A DNA stretch of 32,485 nt from NCBI GenBank assembly GCA_029547385.1, contig JAKPPK010000447.1, positions 1 to 32,485 on the forward strand, in the 5' to 3' direction. The position numbers and the translations under genes were made by a program. How positions within the stretch are numbered: position 1 is the first letter of the stretch; every line of letters begins with the position of its first letter. Shown here in pieces: positions 12,304 through 31,005 of the stretch. Source of the DNA: Candidatus Latescibacterota bacterium (GTDB lineage Bacteria; Latescibacterota; MWCZ01). The notes under the pieces are model-generated. The model saw only the letters and a list, made by a program, of their open reading frames with translations, was not told the origin of the DNA and ran no database searches.

Positions 12304-13302
12304 GTGAGCGTTCTGAGACGAAGAAAATGGGTGGCAAAGAGCCTGTTGAGTAGTGCGGCTGCAATCTTGCTCGTGATGGGCTGCGGCCATGCACCTGAGG
12401 TCCGTGTTGCGCCTGCACCTGAGGGGGAGAGTGGTGAACTTGCCTCTGACGTCGATTTTACGCACGCGTATCTGGATCTTGGAACCCGGTACTATGAAGC
12501 GCAGCGATTTGCAGACGCCATCGAGCAGTTTCGGTTTGCGCTTGAATTGAATCCCTGCTCCGATGAGGCGCACGCCCTCATAGGCATGTCGAATTACCGT
12601 CTCGGCAAACGAGAACTGGCCGAACGGAGTTTCCGTCGCGCACTGCAATTGAATTCCCGAAATCTCCTCGCTCAGAACGGCCTCGCCCTGGTCTCGAATG
12701 ATGAGCGAGAGCGTGCCGCGGCACTGGAATCAGCCATTACGTACAATCCTGACGTGCCTGAACTCCGGAACAATCTCTGCTTCATGTATGTGCAGAGCGG
12801 CGATGTCGAACGTGCGATCCAGGAATGCGAAGCCTCTGTCCGCCTCGATAGCGCCAACGCCTACTCCCGATACAATCTCGGATACGCCTACCAACGACAG
12901 GGGCGGTTCGAAGAGGCTCTGGAGCAGTACCGTCGTGCCCTTGAGATTCGCGCGGAGTGGGCACGAGTTCTGAACAACATCGGCCTGGTGCATTACTACC
13001 GGAGCGAGCTTTCGAATGCCGTGGAGTATTATCGCCGCGCGATCGCCGCGGAAGGGAGCGAAGCGATATACCATTACAACCTCGCACTCGCGTACGAAGC
13101 CATCGGTGTTCGCCTTGCCTCGGCGGAACTGCGGGGAGAACCAGCACGCAACGTGTACGGAGTTGCCGCGGATACGGACTGGAGAGAGATGCTTCGCGAA
13201 GCGGCGAGCGAATACAGCACCTACCTCGAGCTTGCACCGGGGGTATCCGACGCACAGCGGATCCGCGCGAAGGTCGCGGAACTGCGGGCGCGAGCCGGTT
13301 GA
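12304..13302 (+). CDS. TPR-repeat lipoprotein
   Basis: Likely GTG start (VSVLRRRKWVAKSLLSSAAAILLVMGCGHAPEV, lipobox LVMGC); TPR units (ALELNPCSDEAHALIGMSNYRLGKRELAERSFRRALQLNSRN; AYSRYNLGYAYQRQGRFEEALEQYRRALEI). Confidence 0.8.
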   Translation: MSVLRRRKWVAKSLLSSAAAILLVMGCGHAPEVRVAPAPEGESGELASDVDFTHAYLDLGTRYYEAQRFADAIEQFRFALELNPCSDEAHALIGMSNYRLGKRELAERSFRRALQLNSRNLLAQNGLALVSNDERERAAALESAITYNPDVPELRNNLCFMYVQSGDVERAIQECEASVRLDSANAYSRYNLGYAYQRQGRFEEALEQYRRALEIRAEWARVLNNIGLVHYYRSELSNAVEYYRRAIAAEGSEAIYHYNLALAYEAIGVRLASAELRGEPARNVYGVAADTDWREMLREAASEYSTYLELAPGVSDAQRIRAKVAELRARAG

Positions 13303-13312
13303 GGGCGCAGGT

Positions 13313-15160
13313 ATGCGAAACCGGATCCTGATTGCCCCATTGACAGGGACTTCGGGTATACCCTCCATCTCCTTTGGATGCCCGCACTTCTGCGTGGCGG
13401 CGATTGTGGCCGTCCTGATCTCGTGCTTCCTCGCGAATCCCGCATCGGCGCAGGGCTCCAGTTCCGGCTTCAATCCCGACGCGGAACTCGCCAGACTGCG
13501 GTCCACACGTGCGAATTTGGAGCGCGTACAGCGCATGTTTTACCTTGGCGAGCTCACCGCGAACTCAGGTCGGGAAGACGTTGCACAAAACGCGTACGGG
13601 GATGTCCTTTCAACGTTTGAAAGGCTTTCAGGGAACGCACGTTCTCTTGCGCTTCCCTATGCAGCTCAATCAGCGCTTTCGCTTGCCGCGATGACGCACG
13701 TTGCCTACCGGGACTCCCCTCTGCGCTTGGAGCGGTACGCGGCAGACAGCGCGCAACGCGCGGCGCTCCTCGTTCGTACCAGAGAAGCCTACAACAGAGC
13801 GTTGGAATTCCACTACGCGCGGGCAACGTTTGAGGCGCTCTTTTTCCGCGCGTATGCGCTGCAGGAATGGAACACCGGCGGCCTCGACTACGCCGCGGAA
13901 CGACAACCGGGAACTGAACTCCTCGAGCAGACCATACGCGACCTGAATCTCTCCCGGCAGCTATTGGATCAGGCGATCAGAGAACACCAGCAGATACTCC
14001 ATCTCGCGGATTCCCTTGGATTTTCGGGTGGCACCGGGGATCGGGACGTGAGCGAGTGGGTTTCCCTTGCACGGGAACAACTCGCCGCCATACCGCAGCA
14101 GCGGGATTCCCTCGTCGCGCGCGAAGAAGCGCTGCAGACAATTTACATTGAGCGCCGGGCCAGCCGGTGGTTGGCTCGTGCAGAACCGCTTCTCTGGGAG
14201 AAAGTCACGGATCTCGCACGCCGGGATGCAAGGATTGCGGATCCTTTCTTCGATTTTGTGTTACAGAGTAGAATGGTCAACGATGTGTTCCGCCCCTACA
14301 TTTTTGGCCCCTCGGGTTTCCTTCAGGCGCATGACCAGGCCCGCAAAGGCGCGCAGACGGTGCGCTCCGAGGAGTGGATGGCGGAGCGGTTCGCCTGGCG
14401 GCGAAGGCAGGAATGGCGAGACGGCGAGATCGCAATGAGGCTGTCGAGGGAAGGGTTGCGCCACCTGCTCCGGTCACCGGAAATGGTCGACAGTGTTGTT
14501 GTGATGCTTCGAACTGCTGCGGATAGCCTCCCCGGAGAGGCAAGAATAGCTCTTTCCAGGGCGGCGCCACAGCCTCCGCAAATCCGGATGCCGGACCTTC
14601 CAGACCTCGGAGGGGTGGATCCACGGCTTCTTTCAGGTGAAGAACACGCGGCAAAACTGGATGAATACCAGCGCTACGTCACCCGGATGGATTCCGTAAG
14701 CCGTCAGATCGAGGCCTACAGAGCTGCCGTGCGGAGCTTCTCTGAAACGGTCGCGGCGTATGTCGGGCAGCCGCTTCCTTCCGCCGCAGATCGATACCTG
14801 CGTGTCAGAAGGGCACTCCGGGCGACGGAAACGTTGTTGCTCGATACGTTGTCAGCACTGGTATTGGAACAGACGCGTTCCGCACTGGAGCGGTCTCGTC
14901 TCGCGGCAGGCTGGGCGCCTCCGGGGGAAGTATCGGCTTCGATGCAACAGACGATAGCTGATCACGCTCAGACGACGTCCCAGAACTTGCGCCTTGCGGC
15001 GGCCATATCGCGTGAACAGGCTGCCCGGTACCGCGTGGAGGTCTCCCGGCTGCGGCAGACGCCGCTCCGTGACGATCTGGCGGAGACGGCGGCAACTCTG
15101 GAACGCTTCGCCGGAACGCTGGAACAGCAGGCGGCCTTGTTTGCAATGGGAACCGGCTGA
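13313..15160 (+). CDS. hypothetical secreted, largely alpha-helical/coiled-coil protein
   Basis: ATG at 13313 (MRNRILIAPLTGTSG...FCVAAIVAVLISCFLANPASAQGSSS signal peptide); about 10 nt after the TPR lipoprotein stop; A/R/E/L-rich helical sequence throughout. Confidence 0.65.
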   Translation: MRNRILIAPLTGTSGIPSISFGCPHFCVAAIVAVLISCFLANPASAQGSSSGFNPDAELARLRSTRANLERVQRMFYLGELTANSGREDVAQNAYGDVLSTFERLSGNARSLALPYAAQSALSLAAMTHVAYRDSPLRLERYAADSAQRAALLVRTREAYNRALEFHYARATFEALFFRAYALQEWNTGGLDYAAERQPGTELLEQTIRDLNLSRQLLDQAIREHQQILHLADSLGFSGGTGDRDVSEWVSLAREQLAAIPQQRDSLVAREEALQTIYIERRASRWLARAEPLLWEKVTDLARRDARIADPFFDFVLQSRMVNDVFRPYIFGPSGFLQAHDQARKGAQTVRSEEWMAERFAWRRRQEWRDGEIAMRLSREGLRHLLRSPEMVDSVVVMLRTAADSLPGEARIALSRAAPQPPQIRMPDLPDLGGVDPRLLSGEEHAAKLDEYQRYVTRMDSVSRQIEAYRAAVRSFSETVAAYVGQPLPSAADRYLRVRRALRATETLLLDTLSALVLEQTRSALERSRLAAGWAPPGEVSASMQQTIADHAQTTSQNLRLAAAISREQAARYRVEVSRLRQTPLRDDLAETAATLERFAGTLEQQAALFAMGTG

Positions 15161-15221: not shown

Positions 15222-16346
15222 TCAAGACCCGATTTGCGTCGGCGGCCCCAGTTCCTCCAGAAGGTCCCCGATCCTTCGTACCAGGTCGATGTCACCATTC
15301 GGGGGAACCTGATCGGCGCCCGCCAACACCAATCCCCTCTCCTCGCCCAGCACCGCTACCACTCTCTTGGCAAACGACAGAACCCAGTCGCGCTCGAAAG
15401 GCGGCGCAAACATTGCCGACGGTATCCCACCCCAGATTATCGTGTTCGGACTCGATGCGTCGCGGATCTGCTCGAGAGTGAGGTCACCTACCGGCGCCGG
15501 AACCACTGACTCAGGAAAGTCGATACCAGCCGCGACAAGGTCGGCGAACAGGTGGCCCAGCGTACCGTCGATGTGGCATCCGACTACTTTCCCGGAGGCG
15601 TGCAGCGCGGCCACACGTTCCCTGTAGTAATCCCTGCTGAAGCGTCTCCAGAGGCCGCCCACCGCCTCTGCAGAGAGGTTGTCGGGGATCTCCACCACCG
15701 GGTACGGCGCCGCGCATGTCAGGCGGTACAGCTCGTCTTCCGCCCTGCGCATGGCGTCGAGGGTTGCCTCCACCTCCGCCGGTGCGTCGGCAACAAGATA
15801 CGCCAGATTGTTCACCCCGCACCATTCCGCCACCAGAGCGGCCAGCGGCGTGCGGGGCGTCAACGGTACCCCGAGCCCGTCGTCTCCCCAGTGAGCGTCG
15901 CATGCCACAACGGCATCGTAGTTCGGCGAGTAGGAAGCACCCTGATACCACGCAACAACTACCCGCAGATCGTCGGCTGTTTTCACCGGATACTCGAGGA
16001 TTGCCGACGAAAAGGAATCCTCGCAACGCTGTGTTACGCTCGTAAGCGATCCTTCCGGAGAACGAAAAACCCGAAGGGTTTTGCCGTCGCCGATATCCTT
16101 CTCTTCGATCGAAAAAAGTGTCGGGTCTCGCTCGATGGTGACCAAGGGCGGTGTGAAGAGGTAGACACCTACTCGGAGGTCGCGATGAAGTTGCAGTAAC
16201 CCTTCACTGCCCCGGTACTTCGCCTCCAATGTTCCCGCTTGCGTGGTCCCGTGCTGGTAGTACGTAAGATCGGTGAACCACGGCACCGCATCCGGAATAC
16301 CGCCGCGCAACACTGTCATTGCTCGCTCGCGAAGCGTCATCCTCAT
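15222..16346 (-). CDS. uroporphyrinogen decarboxylase (URO-D)/methyltransferase-family protein
   Basis: MRMTLRERAMTVLRGGIPDAVPWFTDLTYY..., GKVVGCHIDGTLGHLFADLVAAGIDFPESVVPAPVGDLTLEQIRDASS..IIWGGIPS; URO-D-like fold signature (H-D-G / G-I-P region). Confidence 0.7.
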   Translation of the reverse strand: MRMTLRERAMTVLRGGIPDAVPWFTDLTYYQHGTTQAGTLEAKYRGSEGLLQLHRDLRVGVYLFTPPLVTIERDPTLFSIEEKDIGDGKTLRVFRSPEGSLTSVTQRCEDSFSSAILEYPVKTADDLRVVVAWYQGASYSPNYDAVVACDAHWGDDGLGVPLTPRTPLAALVAEWCGVNNLAYLVADAPAEVEATLDAMRRAEDELYRLTCAAPYPVVEIPDNLSAEAVGGLWRRFSRDYYRERVAALHASGKVVGCHIDGTLGHLFADLVAAGIDFPESVVPAPVGDLTLEQIRDASSPNTIIWGGIPSAMFAPPFERDWVLSFAKRVVAVLGEERGLVLAGADQVPPNGDIDLVRRIGDLLEELGPPTQIGS

Positions 16347-16391
16347 TCCCTCCAGGCATACAGATTGAGGCGGTACTGAGCGCACGAGATC

Positions 16392-16514: not shown

Positions 16515-17966
16515 TCACGTCGCGAAGGTGCGCAACTGGGCCGAGAAGTCCACGATCTCCTTCATATTGCGCAGGAACCAGGGGTCGATCTTTGTCAGCT
16601 CCGCCACATCTTCCACTGTGAAACCGGCTTCGAAGGCAGCCTGAATCTGGAACAACCTTGCTGGCGTGGGGACGGGAAGGTTTGCTTTCAAAAACGCCAC
16701 GGCATCGTCCGCCGGTACCCCGGCGTCTTTCCCGTCCGATCCCAGCCCGTGTCGGTCGATTTCGAGTGATCTCAGGCCCTTCTGCAGCGCTTCCTTGAAT
16801 GTTCTGCCGATGGCCATTGTCTCGCCGACCGATTTCATCTGGATTCCCAACCGGGGTTCCGCACCGGGGAATTTCTCGAATGCCCACCGGGGAATCTTGA
16901 CGACGCAGTAATCGATGGTGGGTTCGAACGAAGCGGGAGTAACCTTGGTGATGTCGTTCGGGATTTCGTCCAATGTGTATCCCACTGCCAGCATGGCGGC
17001 GATTTTGGCGATGGGGAATCCGGTGGCCTTCGACGCAAGAGCAGAAGACCTGCTGACGCGAGGATTCATCTCGATAATCACCATGCGTCCGGTTGCGGGG
17101 TCGACGGCGAACTGGACATTCGACCCGCCGGTTTCAACGCCGATTTCACGGATGACGGCGATTGCGGCGTCTCTCATGCACTGGTACTCTTTGTCGGTCA
17201 GTGTCTGCGCGGGTGCCACAGTGATGGAATCGCCAGTATGAATACCCATCGGGTCCAGGTTTTCTATCGAGCAGATGATGACGACGTTGTCCGCAAGGTC
17301 TCGCATCACCTCCAGTTCGTACTCTTTCCAGCCGATGATCGATTCCTCGATAAGGACCTCGTGAATGGGACTGAGCTCGAGACCGTTTGAAACGACGTCG
17401 CCGAATTCCTCCGTGTTGTACGCGATCCCTCCCCCAGTTCCTCCGAGTGTATAGGATGGTCGGATTATTGCCGGGAAACCCGTAGTTTCGACTATCTTCC
17501 GGGCTTCTGCGAGGGAGTACGCGTACCCACTCCGCGGCAGGTCGACACCGATTCTGCGCATCGCCTCGCGAAACAGCTTGCGGTCTTCCGCTTTGTGAAT
17601 GGCTTCCAGCTTCGCACCTATCAACTCGACACCATGCTTCTCCAATACGCCGCTTTCGGCCAGTTCCACTGCCGTGTTGAGAGCCGTCTGGCCTCCGACG
17701 GTGGGCAGCAATGCATCCGGTTTCTCGCGCTCGATGATTTTCGCGCACACGTCAGCAGTGATAGGCTCTATATAGGTGCGGTTTGCGAAATCCGGGTCCG
17801 TCATGATGGTTGCAGGGTTGCTGTTGACGAGGATCACCTCATACCCCTGAGTTCTCAGTGCCCTGCATGCCTGAGTACCCGAGTAGTCAAACTCGCACGC
17901 CTGACCGATTACTATCGGGCCGGACCCGATAAGCATTATTCGGTGAATGTCTGTTCTTCGCGGCAT
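16515..17966 (-). CDS. carB: carbamoyl-phosphate synthase large subunit, N-terminal half only
   Basis: [99 protein letters not shown]; ends at 483 aa, before the second ATP-grasp half. Confidence 0.9.
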
Positions 17967-19321: not shown

Positions 19322-21298
19322 ATGAGACCACCATGGACAAGCAGTACCCCGTTCACGTACGAGATCGGTTACGGGCAAGACTACGTCGGCAACGAGCAGT
19401 TTCTGTCAGATGTGAGGCGCGGGCGCCCGACTCTGCTGCACTGCGGGCATGACGTTCCGCTTAACAGCGCTACGGGCAACACAATTCAGTTCACTCCCCG
19501 GGACATGAAGTACCTGGACCCTGAGGGTATTCCTGCCCGCATGTCCGAGTTGCGTCAGTACGTGGATTCCCTACACGAGGCGGGCGTGAAGTGGGCGGTT
19601 CCGTACCTCATAACGATGCTCATCATCGGTGACCCGGAGAAAAGAACCGGATTCTGGAACCTTTATGACCGGTGGGAGGAATACTCGGCTCTCGGCATCG
19701 GGGAAAAACCCGGACCACCAGAGAGTTGGTTCTCGCGTGAGCCGCGTCCTTTCCCGGGCCACCCGGGCATGTTGGCGTGTGAAACAACTATCTCGCACCC
19801 GGAGGTGCGGCGTTTCCTGCACGCGTGCACCGACCTTGTGGCTCGATGCGGGTACGACGGTGTTTTTCTCGACGTCAATACCCTTATAGGGAGAACCCCT
19901 CACGACGATCGCTGGTTTGGTGAATACCTGTCGACCCGGTACTCCGAAAGCGAGTTGAAACGAAGATTCGGATTCGCATCACTTGGCGACGTGAGACTGG
20001 GAGAAGAGGGTGCCGGCCTGTTGTGGGTGGAAACACAGCGGTTCCGAGCGTGGGCGTTCGGCCAGCTTTTCGCAGCGCTCCGAGATGCGGGACGCGAGCA
20101 CGTGCCTGGGTTCTTCGTGCTTCCGAACAATTCGCCGATGTGCACCATCGAGGGATTTTTCTCGCGCAGGGGCGTTGGCCACGGTATGCGGTACATCCGG
20201 AACGGATGCGATCTGCTGATGTTCGAGGAGATGCAGCAGGCGGGCAGATTCGGCGCCGACCGGATTGTTGACAATATCCTGCAGTACAAAATGGCAGCCG
20301 CGCACGGGATGAGAGGTGTTGTACTCCTGTACAATGCGACGGACAGGGCGGCAATCAACCTCGCCAATGCCGAAGCGGCGGCCGGTGGAGGTGGCGCATT
20401 TGTTCAGTGCGGGTTTGCCGAAGCCGATACCATGAGGTTCTGGCGCGAGTGGTTCGAGCGGCATTCCAGTGTGTTGGAAGGAATGGATTCGCTTCACACG
20501 GTCGGCGTACTCCACTCGTTGGACGAGATGTACTGGGATAACCGCGCCCACCTCGAGGCGCTGTACCGTCTTCGGCAATCTCTGTCGGATCACCACGTGC
20601 TGTTCGACATCCTGCTGCCGGAGCATCTGGAGCAGGGGAAGACTTCGTCGTTCCGGATTCTCGTTCTTCCCGAGGTGCGGCATCTGAGCAATGACCAGGT
20701 GGCCGGGATGGCGAGGTTTTGCCGGAATGGCGGGAAGGTAATCCTGCTCGGTGAATGCGGAACGTTCGATGAAACGGGAGCACGACGAGACGAAAAGCTG
20801 TGTGATGTGCTCGATGTGTCCGCAACCTCGCAGGTGCGTTCGATATCAGATATCGTTCCGACGTGGGGACCGGAGCTGTACGAACTCAGCGAGGAGGACT
20901 ACAATGACTTCGACCTCGTCGCCCGCCTGCCCGACCGCGTTGCTTCCGCTTCGGAGGCCGAACAGGTGCGGCGTTCAGCGCTGGTACCACTTCTCGACAC
21001 ACTTCTGGGTGAACCCTGCACGTTTCTGCAGGACGCGCCTTACAGTCTCCGCGTTTCGGCGTTCCGTTCGCCAGACGGGAGGCGAACCGTAGTTCATCTG
21101 GTGAATTACGACCTGCCCGTGCTCGGGAAAGGGATGTCCGGTAACCCGATTCCTGCCGGTCCCGCGCGAATACGTTACGGAGGTCAACGCGCACACTGGT
21201 TCACTCCCGAGGGTGTGGAAGGCGATGCGAAACGCGGCGGAGACGGGAGTTTTGTCATACCCGCTGTTGAGACCTACTGCATGGTGGTGATTGAGTGA
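19322..21298 (+). CDS. putative glycoside hydrolase, GH42-like architecture (TIM barrel + GATase-like domain)
   Basis: 658 aa; TIM-barrel-like ...CGYDGVFLDVN..., then GATase/trimerization-like FRILVLPEVRHLSNDQVAGMARFCRNGGKVILLGECG and C-terminal beta domain RRTVVHLVNYDLP; strong RBS aaaggaga; no signal peptide. Confidence 0.6.
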   Translation: MRPPWTSSTPFTYEIGYGQDYVGNEQFLSDVRRGRPTLLHCGHDVPLNSATGNTIQFTPRDMKYLDPEGIPARMSELRQYVDSLHEAGVKWAVPYLITMLIIGDPEKRTGFWNLYDRWEEYSALGIGEKPGPPESWFSREPRPFPGHPGMLACETTISHPEVRRFLHACTDLVARCGYDGVFLDVNTLIGRTPHDDRWFGEYLSTRYSESELKRRFGFASLGDVRLGEEGAGLLWVETQRFRAWAFGQLFAALRDAGREHVPGFFVLPNNSPMCTIEGFFSRRGVGHGMRYIRNGCDLLMFEEMQQAGRFGADRIVDNILQYKMAAAHGMRGVVLLYNATDRAAINLANAEAAAGGGGAFVQCGFAEADTMRFWREWFERHSSVLEGMDSLHTVGVLHSLDEMYWDNRAHLEALYRLRQSLSDHHVLFDILLPEHLEQGKTSSFRILVLPEVRHLSNDQVAGMARFCRNGGKVILLGECGTFDETGARRDEKLCDVLDVSATSQVRSISDIVPTWGPELYELSEEDYNDFDLVARLPDRVASASEAEQVRRSALVPLLDTLLGEPCTFLQDAPYSLRVSAFRSPDGRRTVVHLVNYDLPVLGKGMSGNPIPAGPARIRYGGQRAHWFTPEGVEGDAKRGGDGSFVIPAVETYCMVVIE

Positions 21299-21342
21299 GT
21301 GGATGGCCGAACATGCCCGTAGCGCGATAATTCGGGGGACAA

Positions 21343-22479
21343 ATGACCAGGAATGCGCTTATCGAAGCTCTCAAGAGACTCTACGTGGCTTGTCTGGTTG
21401 ATTGGGACAGGAACCACGCCGACAAACTGGTCACCAGTGACGATTCTGCGGAACTGGGATGGGGCGAAGCGTACGTCCTGCGGGCTTTCGTTGGAGCCTA
21501 TCGCTTTACCGGCGACGTCTACTGGATTCGAAGGCTGTGTGCGCACGCAGGAGCCGTACTGGCAAACGCGAAGGACACGCCGGACGGCAAACCGTTCGAC
21601 GCGGTGTATGCTGACGGGTTCCTTGGGTGGGGAACGGACAGGTACTCTGGCCAGTACGATGAATACATGGTGCACGACGGGCACATCTGTACTCCAATTG
21701 CGGAATTTGCCGCGATGGTGTTCGCTGATGGGCGTCTGTACGAGGTGTTCGGGGAAGATGCGACGCGGTTTGTCAGGTTCATTGAGAACCATATCGCTGC
21801 AAAATGGCTCAACGTGTGGGATCGTCGAAGGGACGGTGACGAGGAGTTCGCATGGGGAGAGACAGTGCGGAACTGGGGCGGACTGGATTTCATTCCCCAC
21901 AACCAGTACGCAGCCTTTGGCGCTCTACTCGTGTTTCTGGATGACGTGGTCAGGGATCCCCGTTACTCTTCGGTCATGGGTGCCGCCGCTCAGACCGTAT
22001 ATCGCCAGAAGGCCATTGAGATGGGCGCGTACTTCAAAGCCCATGTCGAATCGCTTCCGGGGACCGATGCGTACGCGTGGAAATACCACGACACCTGTGG
22101 CGCCGAAGACACTTCCCACGCCAACCTCGAGCTGGAGTTTGCCTGGTGGTTGCATGAGCGCGGACTTGTGTTCTCCGACAGCGACATGGACCGGTTCGCC
22201 GGGACGTTTGCCAACGTGATGTGGAACGGCGATGCGGAAGATCCCCGCGTGAATGCGTCGACGGATGGAAAAGGTGATTGGACGGGAGGCAAAACGACAT
22301 GGGGATGGGCACTCTTTTCCCGGCGCGACCCCGCTCTGTGGCACGTTCTCGCCCTAACGTTTCTTTCGGAGTCTGAAGCGCCGACCGGTAGCGGGCTTGT
22401 GGCAATGGGCCGTTTGTTGGAAGCCTGTACCGAGGCAGGAGCCAGCCTGCCAACCAGAGGAGGAATGCAGCGTGGGTAA
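21343..22479 (+). CDS. six-hairpin (alpha/alpha toroid)-like putative carbohydrate-active enzyme, paralog 1 (no evident signal peptide, single domain)
   Basis: 378 aa; LGWGEAYVLRAF, YADGFLGWG, YSGQYDEYMVHDGH, PHNQYAAFG, EDTSHANLELEFAWWLHERG shared with the next two genes; no signal peptide. Confidence 0.65.
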   Translation: MTRNALIEALKRLYVACLVDWDRNHADKLVTSDDSAELGWGEAYVLRAFVGAYRFTGDVYWIRRLCAHAGAVLANAKDTPDGKPFDAVYADGFLGWGTDRYSGQYDEYMVHDGHICTPIAEFAAMVFADGRLYEVFGEDATRFVRFIENHIAAKWLNVWDRRRDGDEEFAWGETVRNWGGLDFIPHNQYAAFGALLVFLDDVVRDPRYSSVMGAAAQTVYRQKAIEMGAYFKAHVESLPGTDAYAWKYHDTCGAEDTSHANLELEFAWWLHERGLVFSDSDMDRFAGTFANVMWNGDAEDPRVNASTDGKGDWTGGKTTWGWALFSRRDPALWHVLALTFLSESEAPTGSGLVAMGRLLEACTEAGASLPTRGGMQRG

Positions 22480-24919
22480 ATGGCGCGGACATATCTGTGC
22501 AGCGATCGGTGTGATGTGGTTGAGTCTGGCTGTGCCGACCTCGACAGCATCGGACGTGCCCGGCGATTTCATGGCCCGCATGATCGCGTGGGACGGGAAA
22601 TACGCCGATTCATACCACAGAACTCGGGATTCCGGGACTCTGGCGTGGGGGGAATCGTACGTTCTTCGCGCATTCATGAGTGCGTATCACGTGACGAAAG
22701 ACCCGTACTGGTTGGGGCGAGTGTGTACCCACGCGGATTCGTTGATAGTCTACGCATGGGATCATCCGGACACGGGATACTACGACCCGGCCTACGCCGA
22801 TGGATTTCTTGGCTGGGGAACGGCTCATTATTCTGACCAGTACGATGAATACATGGTGCACGAAGGGCACGTGATGACACCCGTCGCTGAGCTGGTCGCG
22901 GAGGTGTTCAAGGACTCGACACTGTGGGAGGAATTCGGCGGGCGAGCGCAGACGTATATGGCCTTTCTCACCGACCACATTGCAGCGAAGTGGCTGCGCC
23001 TGTGGCCAGGCACGCCGCCAGCGAGCTTTAAATGGGGTCTCACAGTGCGCGAGTGGTACGGGCTCGATTACGCACCCCACAATCAATACGCGGTGTTCGG
23101 CGCGATGCTGCTGTTCATGGACGACGTTGTTCGAACCGCACGGTATGCGCAGTTGAAACCGGGTGACCCGCCCACGATCTACCGCCAACGCGCAGTGGAG
23201 ATGGGCGAATACTTCAAACGGCATCTTCTCTACCTGCCCGCGTACGACGCCTACTCGTGGAAATACCACAACAACAGCGGAGCCGAAGACGCGTCGCACG
23301 CGAACCTCGAACTGGAATTCGCGTGGTGGCTGAACGAGCGTGACCTGGTCTTCACCGACCTTGACATGCAGCGCTTCGCGCGCACCTTGACGTCCATCAT
23401 GTGGAACAAAAGCCTCACTGCACCCGCCGTGAACATGAGCACCGCGGGAACAGGTGACTGGTCGGGGACGGATTATCTCTGGGGTTGGTCCCTCTTCGGC
23501 AAGTTCGATCCTCTCCTGTGGAGGATTCTCGAACGGTACTACGCCGCAAAAACAGGAGATACCTCGCCCTACGGTATGGCGACCGTTGCAAGGCTTCAGC
23601 GGTTTCGTGACACATTTCTGAACCACGGCATTCTTGTTCCCGAACGATTGAGTGTCATTGACGATGGCGATCGTGTGATTCGTCCGGGAGAGACGGCCAG
23701 AATCGGTGTCACCGTTCGCAATATCGGGAACGCGCGGGACTCAATCATTGTACGGATTTCGGGTCTTGATCCTCTGGTCATCGCATCCGGGACCGATTCG
23801 GTCATCGCAGCGGTGGATTCGGGCGCTGCAGCACTGGTGGAGTTCGTCGTTCGCGCGCCTGTTGACGTTGCGACGAAACGGGTGTCCATTACGGCCCGCG
23901 TTGGTTCACTGTCAGTCACCGGTCAGGTGACCGTTGGTTCACCATCTACCGTTTTCGTGGAAGGGACACCACCCGCGGACGACGGAATTACGCACAATGC
24001 ATTCTATGCTGCGCTGACACCCCCGGTGCACCGCTGGACATGGGCGGAAGGGGACACGTTCTCGACGGCGGCGCTTTTCCGATTTGAATCTGTGGTCTGG
24101 CGCGCTGCGTGGGCGCTCCCGACCCCACAGCAACGTGACACGCTCGCACGGTTCCTGGATATGGGGGGCAATCTCCTGATCACGGGCGGCGGGGTCTTGC
24201 CCGCCTGGATTACGCGATCGCCGGAAGATTCCCTCTTTTTCGCCCGCTATTTCAAGGTAACCGGCGCAGTCGATGTGCACGACAGCCTCGCCGGACTGGG
24301 TGTTTCTGTTCGCCCCTTTGATCCCATGGCCTTCACTGCAATGGGCACGTCCAGGAGATACCTCCGGAGTTCACCCGTCGTTCATTTCGACGTTCTTAAC
24401 TCCTTTGGTCCGCCGCAGAAGCAGATCATTTTCTCCGCGACAGATGCCCAGTTCAACCCGAAAGTCCTGCCCGATTCGATTGGCGGCGTAGGTATAGACA
24501 GTACGTACCGGGCTCTGTTGTTCGGTTGGGATCTGGATGATATGTCCTCCAACACGTCCAGAACCGTTGTGACGCTCGCCCTCACGTGGCTGAGATCGCC
24601 AACCTCGGTCCGGGCCGGAGAATACCCACGACCCGACGCGGTTCGCGAAATTGAACTCAGCGTGGCACCGAATCCGTTCAACCCGCATACGACCATAACA
24701 GCTCGCGGACTCAAGCTGGGGGAACCTGCACGGATCAGTGTGGTAAACGTTCTGGGACAGGTGTGTTGGAGCGCGCGAAATCCCCGGCCCGGTACGGAAT
24801 GGCGCGTCATGTGGGATGGACGGGACGTGCAGGGGGAGTTCGTGGGCACGGGAACGTACTTCGTTGCCATCGAACAGGGTGATGCAAGAAAGGCAACGCG
24901 AATCCAACTGGTTCGGTAG
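22472..24919 (+). CDS. secreted six-hairpin-like putative carbohydrate-active enzyme, paralog 2, with CARDB/NEW3-like, GATase-like and T9SS/FlgD-Ig C-terminal domains
   Basis: GTG start overlapping the previous stop, SD aggagga; signal VGKWRGHICAAIGVMWLSLAVPTSTAS; core motifs as paralog 1; C-terminus VAPNPFNPHTTITARGLKLGEPARISVVNVLGQV...GTGTYFVAIEQGDARKATRIQLVR. Confidence 0.75.
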   Translation: MGKWRGHICAAIGVMWLSLAVPTSTASDVPGDFMARMIAWDGKYADSYHRTRDSGTLAWGESYVLRAFMSAYHVTKDPYWLGRVCTHADSLIVYAWDHPDTGYYDPAYADGFLGWGTAHYSDQYDEYMVHEGHVMTPVAELVAEVFKDSTLWEEFGGRAQTYMAFLTDHIAAKWLRLWPGTPPASFKWGLTVREWYGLDYAPHNQYAVFGAMLLFMDDVVRTARYAQLKPGDPPTIYRQRAVEMGEYFKRHLLYLPAYDAYSWKYHNNSGAEDASHANLELEFAWWLNERDLVFTDLDMQRFARTLTSIMWNKSLTAPAVNMSTAGTGDWSGTDYLWGWSLFGKFDPLLWRILERYYAAKTGDTSPYGMATVARLQRFRDTFLNHGILVPERLSVIDDGDRVIRPGETARIGVTVRNIGNARDSIIVRISGLDPLVIASGTDSVIAAVDSGAAALVEFVVRAPVDVATKRVSITARVGSLSVTGQVTVGSPSTVFVEGTPPADDGITHNAFYAALTPPVHRWTWAEGDTFSTAALFRFESVVWRAAWALPTPQQRDTLARFLDMGGNLLITGGGVLPAWITRSPEDSLFFARYFKVTGAVDVHDSLAGLGVSVRPFDPMAFTAMGTSRRYLRSSPVVHFDVLNSFGPPQKQIIFSATDAQFNPKVLPDSIGGVGIDSTYRALLFGWDLDDMSSNTSRTVVTLALTWLRSPTSVRAGEYPRPDAVREIELSVAPNPFNPHTTITARGLKLGEPARISVVNVLGQVCWSARNPRPGTEWRVMWDGRDVQGEFVGTGTYFVAIEQGDARKATRIQLVR
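24843..24919 (+). repeat. 77-nt near-identical 3'-end repeat, copy A (end of paralog 2)
   Basis: tgggcacgggaacgtacttcgttgCCatcgaacagggtgatgcaagaaaggcaacgcgaatccaactggttcggtag; 75/77 identical to 27437-27513 by eye. Confidence 0.9.
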
Positions 24920-25068
24920 TTGGCAGATTTGGGGACCAGAGGTGGGTGGTGCATCCCTTGAATTCCCGCGAACACACGTGTGATTTCCGGGGGAAGCTTT
25001 CAAACAGGCAGTTTGTTGCGGGGAACCGTTCCGCAAAAGAGGGCCGATCAAAAGCGAGGGGTGAGGGA

Positions 25069-27513
25069 ATGAGGTTGCCAGAAAGGCAGGGGTTGGTGTT
25101 CGTTTTCGCGACGGTCGTTGTGGGGTGTCTCGTTCGGTTTGCGGCGGCAGAGGATCTTCCTGGAGTGTTCACGGACCGGATTTATGCCTGGGGCGCGAGC
25201 ACGAAGGATTCGGATGCGTTCCTGAAAACGGCAAACTCCGCCAATCTCGCGTGGGGCGAATCGTACGTGCTTCGTGCGTTCATGAGCGCCTACCGTTTGA
25301 CGGGAGATACCTACTGGCTTCGCCGCGTGTGCACACACGCGGACTCGCTGATTGCCCATGCGCGGGATTTTCCGGAAGGGGAGTATTATGACCCGGTGTA
25401 TGCGGACGGGTATCTCGGGTGGGGGTGCAAAAACTACTCCGATCAGTATGACGAGTACATGGTGCACGATGGGCACGTGACGACTCCCGTTGCCGCGTTT
25501 GTCGCCGAAGTATACAAGGATTCCACTCTGTGGGACGAATTCGGGGCACGTGCGCAGACGTACTTCGCGTTCATTGCGGACAATATTGCCGCCAAATGGC
25601 TGGCGATTACGCCGAGGACTTCCTCGGGAACAGGGGAAACACTGCGGCTTTGGCGGGGCTGGTCGTTCCTGCCCCACAACCAGTATGCGGCGTTTGCTTC
25701 TTTGCTTCTCTTCCTCGACGACGCGGCTAACACGCCGCGATTTGCCGCGGTGCACCCGGAACGAGTTACGACGGTGTACGGGCAACGGGCGCGCGAAATG
25801 GGGACCTATTTCCGGAGTCGCCTGCAGCTCAACCCGGCATCGAACTCGTATTCCTGGGCCTATCTCGGATACGGTTCGGGCGAGGACGCGTCCCATGCGA
25901 ATCTGGAGCTGGAACTGGCATGGTGGCTGAATGAACGCGGCGTCGTGTTCACTGATCTCGACATGGAACGCTTTGCCCGAACGCTGACGACGAGGATGTG
26001 GAACAAAAGCTTCAATCCTCCGCTGGTGAACAAGAGCACCGAAGGCAACGACGACTGGACCGGGGCGGAAGGCGTCTGGGGGTGGTCCCTCTATTCGAAG
26101 TTCGATCCGTTGCTCTGGCGAATCCTGGAAAGGTACTACAGCGCGCTCCCTACCGTGCGACACCATCAGGTGGCAACACTGGCCCACCTGCAGCGTTTCC
26201 GCGACGTGTTCCTCAACAGTGGGATCATTTTGCCAGAAGGCGTTATTGTGATCGACGATGGTGACCAGGTACTCCGACCGGGAGAAAGGGCGAAGATCGG
26301 TATCTCAGTGCGGAATGTAGGCGTGCAGCGTGATTCGGCGAAGGTCTGGTTATCGCAATACGCTCCCCTCGTCATTGCTCCGGGGGGTGATACCACTTCT
26401 GTCGTGGTCGAGCCGGGGGCCTCTGCCCGAGCCACATTTGATGTTCAGGTTCCCGGGGACGTTGCGACCAGACAGATAACCATCGTGGGTTACGCGGATT
26501 TCTTACCCGCTACGGGGAGCGTCACCACCGGGTACCCGGACGTCGCGTTTGTGGAAGGGCTCCCTGGCGCCGATGGACTCGCCCACAACCAGTTCTATTC
26601 CAGCCTCACTACTGTCGCCCACCGCTGGGTCCATTCGGAAACCGACACCTTCACGACGGTTGCCCTGCGGAACTTCGACGCGATCGTATGGCGCGCCGCG
26701 TGGGCGGTGCCTGCTCCTCAGCAGCGGGATTCGCTGGCAAAATTCCTCGACATGGGTGGCAATCTCCTCATAACAGGTGGCGGTGTTCTGCCCGCATGGA
26801 TTGGGCGGTCAACGGAGGATTCGCTGTTCTTCGCCCGGTATTTCAAGGTGACCGGCGCGATTGATGTGCACGACAGCCTCCAGGGGCTTACCCCGAGCGT
26901 TCGTGCGAAAAACCCGGCGGCGCTCAGCGCAATCGGAGGGTCCAAAAGAAATTTCCGTACCTCGCCACCCATCCATTTCGACGTTCTGCATACATTTGCG
27001 CCCGAAGACCAGACCATCATCTTCGCGGCGACAGACGCCCAGTTGGTTCCGAAAATGCTTCCCGATTCCGTCGGCGGAGTGGGCATTGATTCCACCTACA
27101 ACGCACTGCTGTTCGGGTGGGATTTTGACGATGTGTCCTCGGTGATTGCCACAAAGTCGATGATCACTTACCTCCTCGCATGGTTCAAATCGCCGACGTC
27201 GGTGGAGTCGGGTGGAACGATGCGCCCGACGCCGACAAGTGCACTCAGAATCGTTGCATTGCCGAACCCGTTCAATCCGGCTACCACGATAACCGCTCGC
27301 GGCCTCGCGCAGGGGATCGCTGCGCGAATCGCCGTGACCAACGTGCTCGGGCAGGAGTGTTGGAGTTCGACGAATGCACGACCTGGCCCGGAGTGGAGCG
27401 TCGTCTGGAATGGTCGAAACCAGCGTGGGGAGTCCATGGGCACGGGAACGTACTTCGTTGTAATCGAACAGGGTGATGCAAGAAAGGCAACGCGAATCCA
27501 ACTGGTTCGGTAG
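25069..27513 (+). CDS. secreted six-hairpin-like putative carbohydrate-active enzyme, paralog 3, same multidomain architecture as paralog 2
   Basis: ATG 25069 MRLPERQGLVFVFATVVVGCLVRFAAAEDLPG; core motifs WGESYVLRAFMSAYRLTGD, YSDQYDEYMVHDGH, PHNQYAAFA, SHANLELELAWWLNERG; C-terminus ALPNPFNPATTITARGLAQG...GTGTYFVVIEQGDARKATRIQLVR. Confidence 0.75.
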   Translation: MRLPERQGLVFVFATVVVGCLVRFAAAEDLPGVFTDRIYAWGASTKDSDAFLKTANSANLAWGESYVLRAFMSAYRLTGDTYWLRRVCTHADSLIAHARDFPEGEYYDPVYADGYLGWGCKNYSDQYDEYMVHDGHVTTPVAAFVAEVYKDSTLWDEFGARAQTYFAFIADNIAAKWLAITPRTSSGTGETLRLWRGWSFLPHNQYAAFASLLLFLDDAANTPRFAAVHPERVTTVYGQRAREMGTYFRSRLQLNPASNSYSWAYLGYGSGEDASHANLELELAWWLNERGVVFTDLDMERFARTLTTRMWNKSFNPPLVNKSTEGNDDWTGAEGVWGWSLYSKFDPLLWRILERYYSALPTVRHHQVATLAHLQRFRDVFLNSGIILPEGVIVIDDGDQVLRPGERAKIGISVRNVGVQRDSAKVWLSQYAPLVIAPGGDTTSVVVEPGASARATFDVQVPGDVATRQITIVGYADFLPATGSVTTGYPDVAFVEGLPGADGLAHNQFYSSLTTVAHRWVHSETDTFTTVALRNFDAIVWRAAWAVPAPQQRDSLAKFLDMGGNLLITGGGVLPAWIGRSTEDSLFFARYFKVTGAIDVHDSLQGLTPSVRAKNPAALSAIGGSKRNFRTSPPIHFDVLHTFAPEDQTIIFAATDAQLVPKMLPDSVGGVGIDSTYNALLFGWDFDDVSSVIATKSMITYLLAWFKSPTSVESGGTMRPTPTSALRIVALPNPFNPATTITARGLAQGIAARIAVTNVLGQECWSSTNARPGPEWSVVWNGRNQRGESMGTGTYFVVIEQGDARKATRIQLVR
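27437..27513 (+). repeat. 77-nt near-identical 3'-end repeat, copy B (end of paralog 3)
   Basis: tgggcacgggaacgtacttcgttgTAatcgaacagggtgatgcaagaaaggcaacgcgaatccaactggttcggtag; similarity stops at the stop codon. Confidence 0.9.
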
Positions 27514-27884: not shown

Positions 27885-30761
27885 TCACATCCCGCCCCGC
27901 CCCGCCGCCTCCTCGATCACCTTCGTATCCCGGTAGATGTCTTCCCACCCAGAGTATTCCGCATCGTAGGCGATGACGGCCTCCGCGGGCGCCCCGGCAA
28001 GCGCGGAGAGATCGATGCCACTTCCCGCAACCGGCAGGTGGGCGTCAAACGGCCGTCCGAACAGGTCGAACAACGGCGCGGAGACAAGGACGAACGACAC
28101 GCCCTCGAAGTCCGGCGCCTCAGGCTTCTCACTTTGCGCCCCATGCCCGAAATCAACGGCAACGCGCAGGTCCGTTGCCCCCACTTCCTTCACAAACTGC
28201 CGCATAGACGCAGCCGTGGAACAGAACTTGTGCGGGTGGGGCCGCAGGTGGAGCGTGATTGACCGGGCCGATGCGCGTTCGCAGAGCTCGCGCACGCACA
28301 CGAGGAACCGCTCGTGCGCCCGCTCATGGCTCACTTCGTTTTCCGGTCCGATGTGCAGCTCGAGGAGAGCATCACGCGCGCCGAGAACCTCCATTTTTCC
28401 GAACACATCGTCAAATACCGCGACCGTGCGCGCCCACGCAGGCAGAAACGTATCGAGCAACTGCAGGTCGGGGAACAGGTTGCACCCGGAACTGAAATCC
28501 ACGGCGATGCGCACCTTCTGGCGCTTGATCCATTCGGCCTCTTCGCTCAGGACGTTCACATCCCGGCCATGCAGAGCGTTCCAATCCAGCAGCACGCCGT
28601 CGAAATGCTGGAAGAAGGTTGGCATCCTGAGGATCGCTTCCTTGACGTTGCCCGTCTCGCGTGGTAACCGCAGGAACCTGTTTCGCGGCCGCTCGGGCGG
28701 TGCGACGCGTGGAAGCGCGCGAACAGCTTCCTTCGCCAGCTTCACCTGGAAGATGCGCACGTCGTTGCCGGCGATCGTTGCCTCGTCTGATACGCCTCCG
28801 TCGTGCTGGATCCCGTTGGGCCAGTACCCCGGCTGTCCTTTTTCGGATTGATCAAGCGGAATCTCACGGATATCCTCTATCATGCCCGCTAAGGAACGTA
28901 TCTGGAACGGTCGCGCCTCGAGGGAGTTGTTGAACACGCCGACCGTGTACTCGCCCTCTCCTTTTCGGCACGTAACAAATCCCAGCCCCTCGCCCACCGA
29001 AAACAACTGCTGCGTCGCCAACGCATCAGCGATCACTCGCCGCACGTGCTGCAGCATCACAAACGGGCAGGGGAACTCGCGCTCCGCCTCATTAGGGACC
29101 GGGCCGGACACCGTTGGTTCTGCGTTGAGGCCGAAGGGGGACAGAACGACGGTCAGCAACCCGCTCCCCCGGGTGAACCGGACTGCGGCAGGCTGCGAAC
29201 CAGGCTCCAGCACGGCCTCAGCGACCACCTCGTCAGGGATCGCGGAGATGGTGTGCAGGTCAAACGCCAGTGGTTCCTCGAATACTTCCCCTGTTCGTTC
29301 GAACCGCACGGTGGTTCCGGCGGGAACGCGGATTGCGTGCCCGATTCCGAGCTCCGGCCACAGGCGGCGCGCGTTCTCCGCCGTTGCCACCACGTGCCCG
29401 CCCGACGCCATAAATGCGTCCAGCTTGTCGCGGGTTTCAGTTCCCGCGTTCTCATCGGACAAAGCACCTGCAATGACGATGAGCCCGTATTGCCGCAGAA
29501 CCCACGGTGCTGCATCCGAGAGGAGGCAATCCATCATGTCGCCCCACGGTGTTGGGGAGAGGAAGCCCCGTTCGTCTCGGTAGTACCCCGCGTCAACATA
29601 GCCCGGATACGCGAGCGAAAGCACTTCGTGCGTAAGGTAATCTCCCGCGCCGTAGGGGATGCCGCCCCAGACCTGGTAGGACGTGTCGCCGTAATACCCG
29701 CTGCCGGAGTAGAGGTGCCGCGGCATCGCCCAACCGGCGTAGTGATCCAGCATGAGAGCCACCGGGGCGTGCATGGTTCCGGGCGAGCCGTGTTCTTCGA
29801 TGAACCTGCCCATGGCGGCCTGAATGTTCCCGATCGGCGAAAGCTGCCCGTCCGCGCCGAAGTACGACGACTCGAATCCTATTGCGGCGCAGTTGTACAT
29901 CCAGTGGGAGTAGATAAGCCGCTTCAGGAGCGCCGTGCTGGTTCCGGCATCTGGGCCCCATTTCAGCCCGCCGGGGTCGGTGCCGGAGCTCTCATACACC
30001 TTCCATCCCCATCGGTTCCACACCGACGCGTTGCCGAACCAGAGAACGCCGTATTGCTTTCCGGCGCCGCGAATGAACGCGTAGTACACCTGCGAGTTGG
30101 GCAGTGCCTGCGCGGTTTCGGCGCCAATGAGGGTGTGGTTGCCCTCCTTGATGAAATAATGCCCGAAGCAGAGGGAAACCAGCGTGCACATATGGTTTCC
30201 GAGATCGTCGCAAAGGCGCTGAAAATGCCGCTGGAAGTTCAGGTACTGGCGCACTCGATCCTGCGGCGACGGGCACTGCTGATGCGCAAAACGCCCGATG
30301 TAGCGCCCATCCTGTTCGCCGTTGTCGAATCCGAGGAAGCGGTCGCCCAGTTCCCGCTCCAGCCTTTCCACCATACCCGGTGGTGTCTGGTAGTTGCACC
30401 AGGATCCCTCAAGCGGCGAACCCGGAACGTACCCCCAGAAATCGAACAGCCACAGCTTCCGACAGCGCACCTCCTCCACAAGGTCCCAGAAATTCTCCGC
30501 AAGGACCGTCGTATAGAACGGCCATATCACCCGCCCCAGCCCCGCGTTCACATACCGGTCCAACTCCTCCCGGAACGCAACGAGTTTCCCGCCCTGGACG
30601 CTGAAGCCGCGGAGTGTGGTGAGCTGGGTGCGGTTTTCGAACGTCTCCCAGGTGGGCATCCGCACGTGATATCTCTCGTAATCCGGGTGCTCGGCCGGCT
30701 CGAGGAGGTACGGGTAGTGGGTGACTGCCGTCACCGGATCGGAGAGTCGGTCTTGTGGCAT
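27885..30761 (-). CDS. putative glycoside hydrolase (TIM barrel + GATase-like) fused to C-terminal xylose-isomerase-like TIM-barrel domain
   Basis: Likely start MPQDRLSDPVTAVTHYPYLLEPAEHPDYERYHVR at 30761; GATase-like QYGLIVIAGALSDENAG...KLDAFMASGGHVVATAENARRLWPELG; C-terminal VDFSSGCNLFPDLQLLDTFLPAW...ITLHLRPHPHKFCSTAASMRQFVKEVGATDLRVAVDFGHG resembles AP-endonuclease-2/xylose-isomerase-like barrels. Confidence 0.6.
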   Translation of the reverse strand: MPQDRLSDPVTAVTHYPYLLEPAEHPDYERYHVRMPTWETFENRTQLTTLRGFSVQGGKLVAFREELDRYVNAGLGRVIWPFYTTVLAENFWDLVEEVRCRKLWLFDFWGYVPGSPLEGSWCNYQTPPGMVERLERELGDRFLGFDNGEQDGRYIGRFAHQQCPSPQDRVRQYLNFQRHFQRLCDDLGNHMCTLVSLCFGHYFIKEGNHTLIGAETAQALPNSQVYYAFIRGAGKQYGVLWFGNASVWNRWGWKVYESSGTDPGGLKWGPDAGTSTALLKRLIYSHWMYNCAAIGFESSYFGADGQLSPIGNIQAAMGRFIEEHGSPGTMHAPVALMLDHYAGWAMPRHLYSGSGYYGDTSYQVWGGIPYGAGDYLTHEVLSLAYPGYVDAGYYRDERGFLSPTPWGDMMDCLLSDAAPWVLRQYGLIVIAGALSDENAGTETRDKLDAFMASGGHVVATAENARRLWPELGIGHAIRVPAGTTVRFERTGEVFEEPLAFDLHTISAIPDEVVAEAVLEPGSQPAAVRFTRGSGLLTVVLSPFGLNAEPTVSGPVPNEAEREFPCPFVMLQHVRRVIADALATQQLFSVGEGLGFVTCRKGEGEYTVGVFNNSLEARPFQIRSLAGMIEDIREIPLDQSEKGQPGYWPNGIQHDGGVSDEATIAGNDVRIFQVKLAKEAVRALPRVAPPERPRNRFLRLPRETGNVKEAILRMPTFFQHFDGVLLDWNALHGRDVNVLSEEAEWIKRQKVRIAVDFSSGCNLFPDLQLLDTFLPAWARTVAVFDDVFGKMEVLGARDALLELHIGPENEVSHERAHERFLVCVRELCERASARSITLHLRPHPHKFCSTAASMRQFVKEVGATDLRVAVDFGHGAQSEKPEAPDFEGVSFVLVSAPLFDLFGRPFDAHLPVAGSGIDLSALAGAPAEAVIAYDAEYSGWEDIYRDTKVIEEAAGRGGM

Positions 30762-31005
30762 GGTTGCTGGTTCCTGCGTCAGGAGGGGGAGGGAATACGG
30801 TGACCTGAAAACGTATGATCGCGAGGGGGTATCAGCGGGGCAAGTACCCCGCGCCACCAAGGAGCCAGGGCACTCTCGCCGAGAACGCCGTGCGCCCCGG
30901 CGAACATTCACCAACCGCCGTCATCATTAGGACGACTACGTTCAGTTGGTGATGCGCAATACGAGCGGAATCCAGAACAGAGCAACGCTCGCGCTTGCGA
31001 CGCAG

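Follow-up and report, generated by a model that had tools for sequence, protein, structure and literature searches.

A candidate toroid-fold carbohydrate-active enzyme family, triplicated in tandem within one genus of Latescibacterota

Toroid folds are found in several kinds of carbohydrate-active enzymes, including PL33 polysaccharide lyases, GH76 alpha-1,6-mannanases, cellobiose and GlcNAc 2-epimerases, and the unsaturated glucuronyl hydrolases of GH88 and GH105. They are also known in proteins that do not act on carbohydrates, such as LanC, linalool dehydratase-isomerase and complement C3d. The Latescibacterota are uncultured bacteria that are thought to break down complex polysaccharides, and Latescibacteria have been described as degraders of algal polysaccharides equipped with PL12, PL15, PL17, PL21 and GH88 enzymes (PMC4454575). 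The candidate enzyme family considered here is spread through this phylum and has no Pfam or NCBIfam model; it would be part of the unseen sugar chemistry of the Latescibacterota.

The window (the whole stretch of DNA that was analysed, 32,485 nucleotides) is the complete contig C526 of a 3.5-Mb metagenome-assembled genome. Positions 19322-27513 hold four co-directional genes (Table 1): a GH42-like gene followed on the same strand by three consecutive paralogs, here called P2, P3 and P4. This arrangement had been read from the sequence in an earlier note and is borne out, as is the presence in the paralogs of the motif blocks listed there, except that P3 carries WWLNERDLVF where the note had ERG. 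The start codon of P3 was placed at GTG 22472, which makes the gene share 8 bp with P2, and that of P4 at ATG 25069 rather than at GTG 24946, in both cases by eye from the signal-peptide-like start and the alignment. The gap between the GH42-like gene and P2 is 44 bp, and the four genes probably form one transcription unit; a scan for promoters and terminators gave signals no more than expected by chance. The closest named record, a Candidatus Latescibacterota bacterium (L004), represents a second species of the genus and has all four genes in identical order, so that the GH42-like gene lies upstream of the paralogs in both species. No transporter was found in the four-gene cluster. The window had been said to lack SusC/SusD genes, which is correct, and the whole genome is without a SusD-type gene. 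Most other genes of the window have housekeeping functions (phosphofructokinase, GAPDH, phosphoglycerate kinase, triosephosphate isomerase, half of CarB, a deaminase and an HNH nuclease). The CarB gene (16515-17966, minus strand) encodes the N-terminal half only, with 483 aa and three CPSase_L domains; the same is seen in the second species, that is, a split carbamoyl-phosphate synthase large subunit.

Table 1. Coordinates of the four-gene cluster, its domains and the neighbouring gene in the window
Feature	Position	Strand	Remarks
GH42-like protein	19322..21298	+	658 aa; no obvious signal peptide
P2, toroid domain alone	21343..22479	+	378 aa; by eye no obvious signal peptide; L004 orthologue 86% identical
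P3	22472..24919	+	815 aa; signal-peptide-like start, toroid domain, C-terminal type IX-like sorting domain
P3 toroid (catalytic) domain	22544..23650	+	from alignment; orthologue 94% identical, dN/dS 0.07
P3 middle			beta and Rossmann-like regions, read by eye
P3 C-terminal tail	24596..24916	+	FlgD/Por_Secre-like
P4	25069..27513	+	814 aa; architecture as in P3
P4 toroid (catalytic) domain	25141..26241	+	from alignment
P4 C-terminal tail	27190..27510	+	FlgD/Por_Secre-like
Opposite-strand neighbour	27888..30761	-	reading frame 27885-30914, 1009 aa; likely start 30761, as in L004

A search of the genome with P2 returned exactly three places, each at E 1e-112 or better and with no further copy, so that chance is excluded. 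Over the shared domain P2 is 51% identical to P3 and 48% identical to P4, with long invariant blocks. When 42 relatives were placed in a FastTree phylogeny, the six paralog sequences from the two species formed one clade (support 1.0), within which every paralog pairs with its own orthologue from the other species. Thus, among the sampled genomes, the triplication is confined to the genus, and it predates the split of its two species. With between-species dN/dS values of 0.22 (P2), 0.13 (P3) and 0.14 (P4), next to 0.18 for the GH42-like gene and 0.10 for the opposite-strand neighbour, all three copies are under purifying selection. Over their last 107 residues, P3 and P4 are 65% identical to each other in the window and 95% identical in L004 (positions 13254-13574 and 15840-16160 there). 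This fits gene conversion in one lineage, limited to the tail, in which the L004 tails were homogenised.

At E 1, P2 has zero matches in Pfam and NCBIfam. The toroid domain of 19 relatives likewise showed no clear Pfam or NCBIfam family, and in P2 and ten distant relatives the toroid domain stayed below the cut-offs of the GH76, GH88, GH127, GlcNAc 2-epimerase and LanC models. Over this domain, 20 members and the ten distant relatives give only weak Pfam matches, most of them with toroid families (best among the 19 relatives, E 0.0018); the strong Pfam matches in relatives are to accessory repeats. Searches of PDB sequences with single proteins and with profiles of 2, 3, 20 and 23 rows gave no full-length relative of the catalytic domain, and no catalytic family was matched by the 3-, 20- or 23-row profile. 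Every PDB match of the 23-row profile with E < 0.005 is a toroid-fold protein: LanCL2 (the best, E 1.3e-6), GH76 (E 4e-6), cellobiose 2-epimerase (E 5e-5) and GlcNAc 2-epimerase (E 5e-4). Since the alignments shown are short helix-hairpin repeats that include no catalytic motifs, these matches reflect kinship of fold, not family membership. A plasmid search with one distant relative gave no match, and a literature search turned up no relevant description of the family. With a six-row profile, relatives were detected in 13 of 64 Latescibacterota genomes; with a 20-row profile the number rose to 23 of the 64, and outside the phylum 8 of about 320 genomes had a relative. This is a real, conserved family with a genus-specific triplication. 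Judged against Pfam, NCBIfam and the PDB, the family is new but its fold is familiar, and it does not amount to a new kind of system. Members of one subfamily (L041-L048) have ~60-100 additional residues, which may be beta-rich, inserted between the YS and EYxVHxG blocks.

An AlphaFold model of P2, built from a six-sequence alignment, has a pTM of 0.81 and a mean pLDDT of 74 (low confidence at residues 85-104 and 166-185). It consists entirely of helical pairs, about six. The top of its Foldseek list is mostly toroids (PL33, linalool dehydratase-isomerase, GH105, GH88, GH116 and GH8), at E values never below 0.012 and TM scores of about 0.4-0.46; viral models gave no significant match. Because the model and the 23-sequence profile both lead mainly to toroids, an (alpha/alpha)n toroid is predicted with moderate confidence, at the level of fold only. 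The earlier proposal of an unassigned toroid family therefore stands in the Pfam, NCBIfam, PDB-sequence and Foldseek comparisons. The best Foldseek match is the PL33 lyase BT4410 (probability 1.00), but with E 0.012, TM 0.44 and 11% identity. PL33 has a C-terminal beta part, whereas P2 stops after the toroid; on these values, and with no C-terminal beta-sandwich in P2, placement in PL33/Hepar_II_III was rejected. GH88 and GH105 enzymes are toroids of similar size, but their places in the Foldseek list are non-significant (E 0.19 or worse), and a single family member matches the GH88 Pfam model, at E 0.31 only. GH76 and the 2-epimerases share the (alpha/alpha)6 hairpin repeats (profile E 4e-6 to 5e-4); the likeness is to generic hairpins, however, with no full-length or catalytic-site alignment, and the relatives' Pfam matches fall below cut-off.

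Eight residues are invariant across 23 sequences (W40, W96, W246, Y248, D256, F277, D281 and T288), although the invariance of D256 is doubtful in a distant subgroup, where its alignment spans a gap. In the 20-member alignment N187, H259 and Y248 are invariant, and it is in its conserved Asn, His and Tyr that the family resembles toroid polysaccharide lyases. The groove cluster of invariant residues proposed in the earlier note receives weak support from a secondary-structure proxy based on helix ends: 16 of 22 conserved polar or aromatic residues fall on the side predicted to face the groove (P 0.035), while for strict invariants the same proxy gives P 0.11-0.15.

The paralogs differ in their ends. 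P3 and P4 begin, by eye, like proteins with signal peptides, and their tails match the sorting-domain model TIGR04183 just below its cut-off of 23 bits (P3, E 1e-4 and 22.1 bits; P4, 19.1 bits); the P4 tail also matches CHU_C at E 0.0012 (19.4 bits, below the cut-off of 27). These weak matches and by-eye readings suggest export signals and sorting tails in both proteins. The genome encodes a homologue of SprA (E 2.9e-200, 666 bits). A sorting tail is absent from P2 and from the GH42-like protein, as is, by eye, a signal-peptide-like start.

The GH42-like protein is 89% identical to its orthologue in L004. It does not reach the Pfam cut-off for GH42 or GH42M; its match to the GH42 trimerisation domain has E 0.016 and 15.2 bits, where the cut-off is 25.8. 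Compared with GH42 beta-galactosidases, it is thus far below the trimerisation-domain cut-off, whereas two paralogs in the genus come close to it (E 2e-5 and 6e-5, the nearest paralog at 24.6 bits), one of them also matching GH42 at E 0.003. From two sequences, AlphaFold gave no usable model of it (pLDDT 36). The genome contains several divergent GH42-like paralogs (G000:C163, C459, C58 and C60), and the window protein shares 26-31% identity with its counterparts in G016 and G001.

Gene context does not indicate a single substrate, either for the cluster or for its relatives. The neighbours of 22 relatives are diverse and often nothing of note. One relative lies near a sulfatase (L039), one has a heparinase II/III-like gene two genes away (L036), one is close to an FG-GAP protein that partly matches a rhamnogalacturonan lyase (L042), and one is followed by genes that by eye resemble those for a sugar-nucleotide dehydrogenase, an epimerase and a glycosyltransferase (L045). 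The sulfatase that had been placed close to the cluster is not there, as all 24 PF00884 matches in the genome lie off contig C526. Co-occurrence was looked for among the neighbours of the 22 relatives, and no partner gene proved constant. Together with the lack of a sulfatase on the contig, this leaves the suggestion of a pathway acting on a sulfated or uronic polysaccharide unsupported.

The family may have the chemistry of a lyase, a hydrolase or an epimerase. It could be a distant branch of a named, or recently named, CAZy lyase or hydrolase family that lies beyond the reach of Pfam, NCBIfam and PDB sequences. In its lyase-like form, N187 would be the neutraliser and H259 and Y248 the base and acid. 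PL33 at the head of the Foldseek list, the invariance of these three residues in the 20-member alignment and the heparinase II/III-like gene near one relative all fit such a descent. We nevertheless think it unlikely: the PDB profiles of 3, 20 and 23 rows found no catalytic family, H259 is not conserved in the distant subgroup, which retains N187 and Y248, and no uronic-acid pathway genes were recognised next to the cluster.

The proteins could also be sugar or polymer epimerases or isomerases, or glycan-tailoring enzymes, and so not degradative. Single members weakly match GlcNAc 2-epimerase (E 0.0018) and D-glucuronyl C5-epimerase (E 0.0033), cellobiose 2-epimerases are among the PDB profile matches, and the genes downstream of the L045 relative include, by eye, the epimerase-like one named above. 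But the matches span one or two hairpins, and exported copies with surface-type tails beside a GH42-like gene fit degradation better, which makes this reading improbable in our judgment. It would be more surprising still if the toroid had a non-sugar substrate or were a binding or scaffold domain. That LanCL2 is the best PDB profile match and linalool dehydratase-isomerase is second by fold would agree with such a role, but the LanC matches cover hairpin repeats only, and a GH42-like partner has been kept in both species.

On balance, and with somewhat better than even confidence, we take P2, P3 and P4 to be an unnamed (alpha/alpha)6-type toroid family of carbohydrate-active enzymes (new with respect to Pfam, NCBIfam and PDB sequences), duplicated in tandem, kept by selection and working both outside (P3 and P4) and inside (P2) the cell. 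Tandem duplication in one Latescibacterota genus would have produced the three copies, which selection then retained. P3 and P4 would be exported by the Sec route; a type IX-like system would then probably deliver them to the cell surface or anchor them there, and an external glycan would be their substrate. Fragments of the material that P3 and P4 attack would be imported and probably processed in the cytoplasm by P2 and the GH42-like glycosidase. A bolder version is that these proteins found a new family of glycan-cleaving enzymes, one that has a catalytic arrangement of its own, the genus having split its copies between cytoplasm and cell surface so that one glycan is processed in two compartments; we offer it tentatively, as possible yet doubtful. 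P2 is compact and has no export signal, which makes it a practical protein for a structure and a glycan screen; these could name the family together with its relatives in other phyla.

The gene on the opposite strand beyond P4 is a conserved neighbour and is not counted into the four-gene cluster; its 90% identical orthologue is adjacent to the cluster in L004 as well. It had been described as a glycosidase/isomerase fusion. The isomerase part holds, in that a xylose-isomerase-like TIM barrel forms the C-terminus (AP_endonuc_2, E 6.6e-9), but the large N-terminal part belongs to an unassigned family and matches no glycosidase family. Outside the phylum, a full-length homologue is encoded at G108:C9:1417-4287 (E 5.6e-209), and partial relatives occur in G017. 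The product of 15222-16385 (minus strand) in the window resembles, by eye, the uroporphyrinogen-decarboxylase superfamily, with no match in Pfam or NCBIfam; genes that resemble it lie near GH42-like paralogs and near the G108 fusion homologue.
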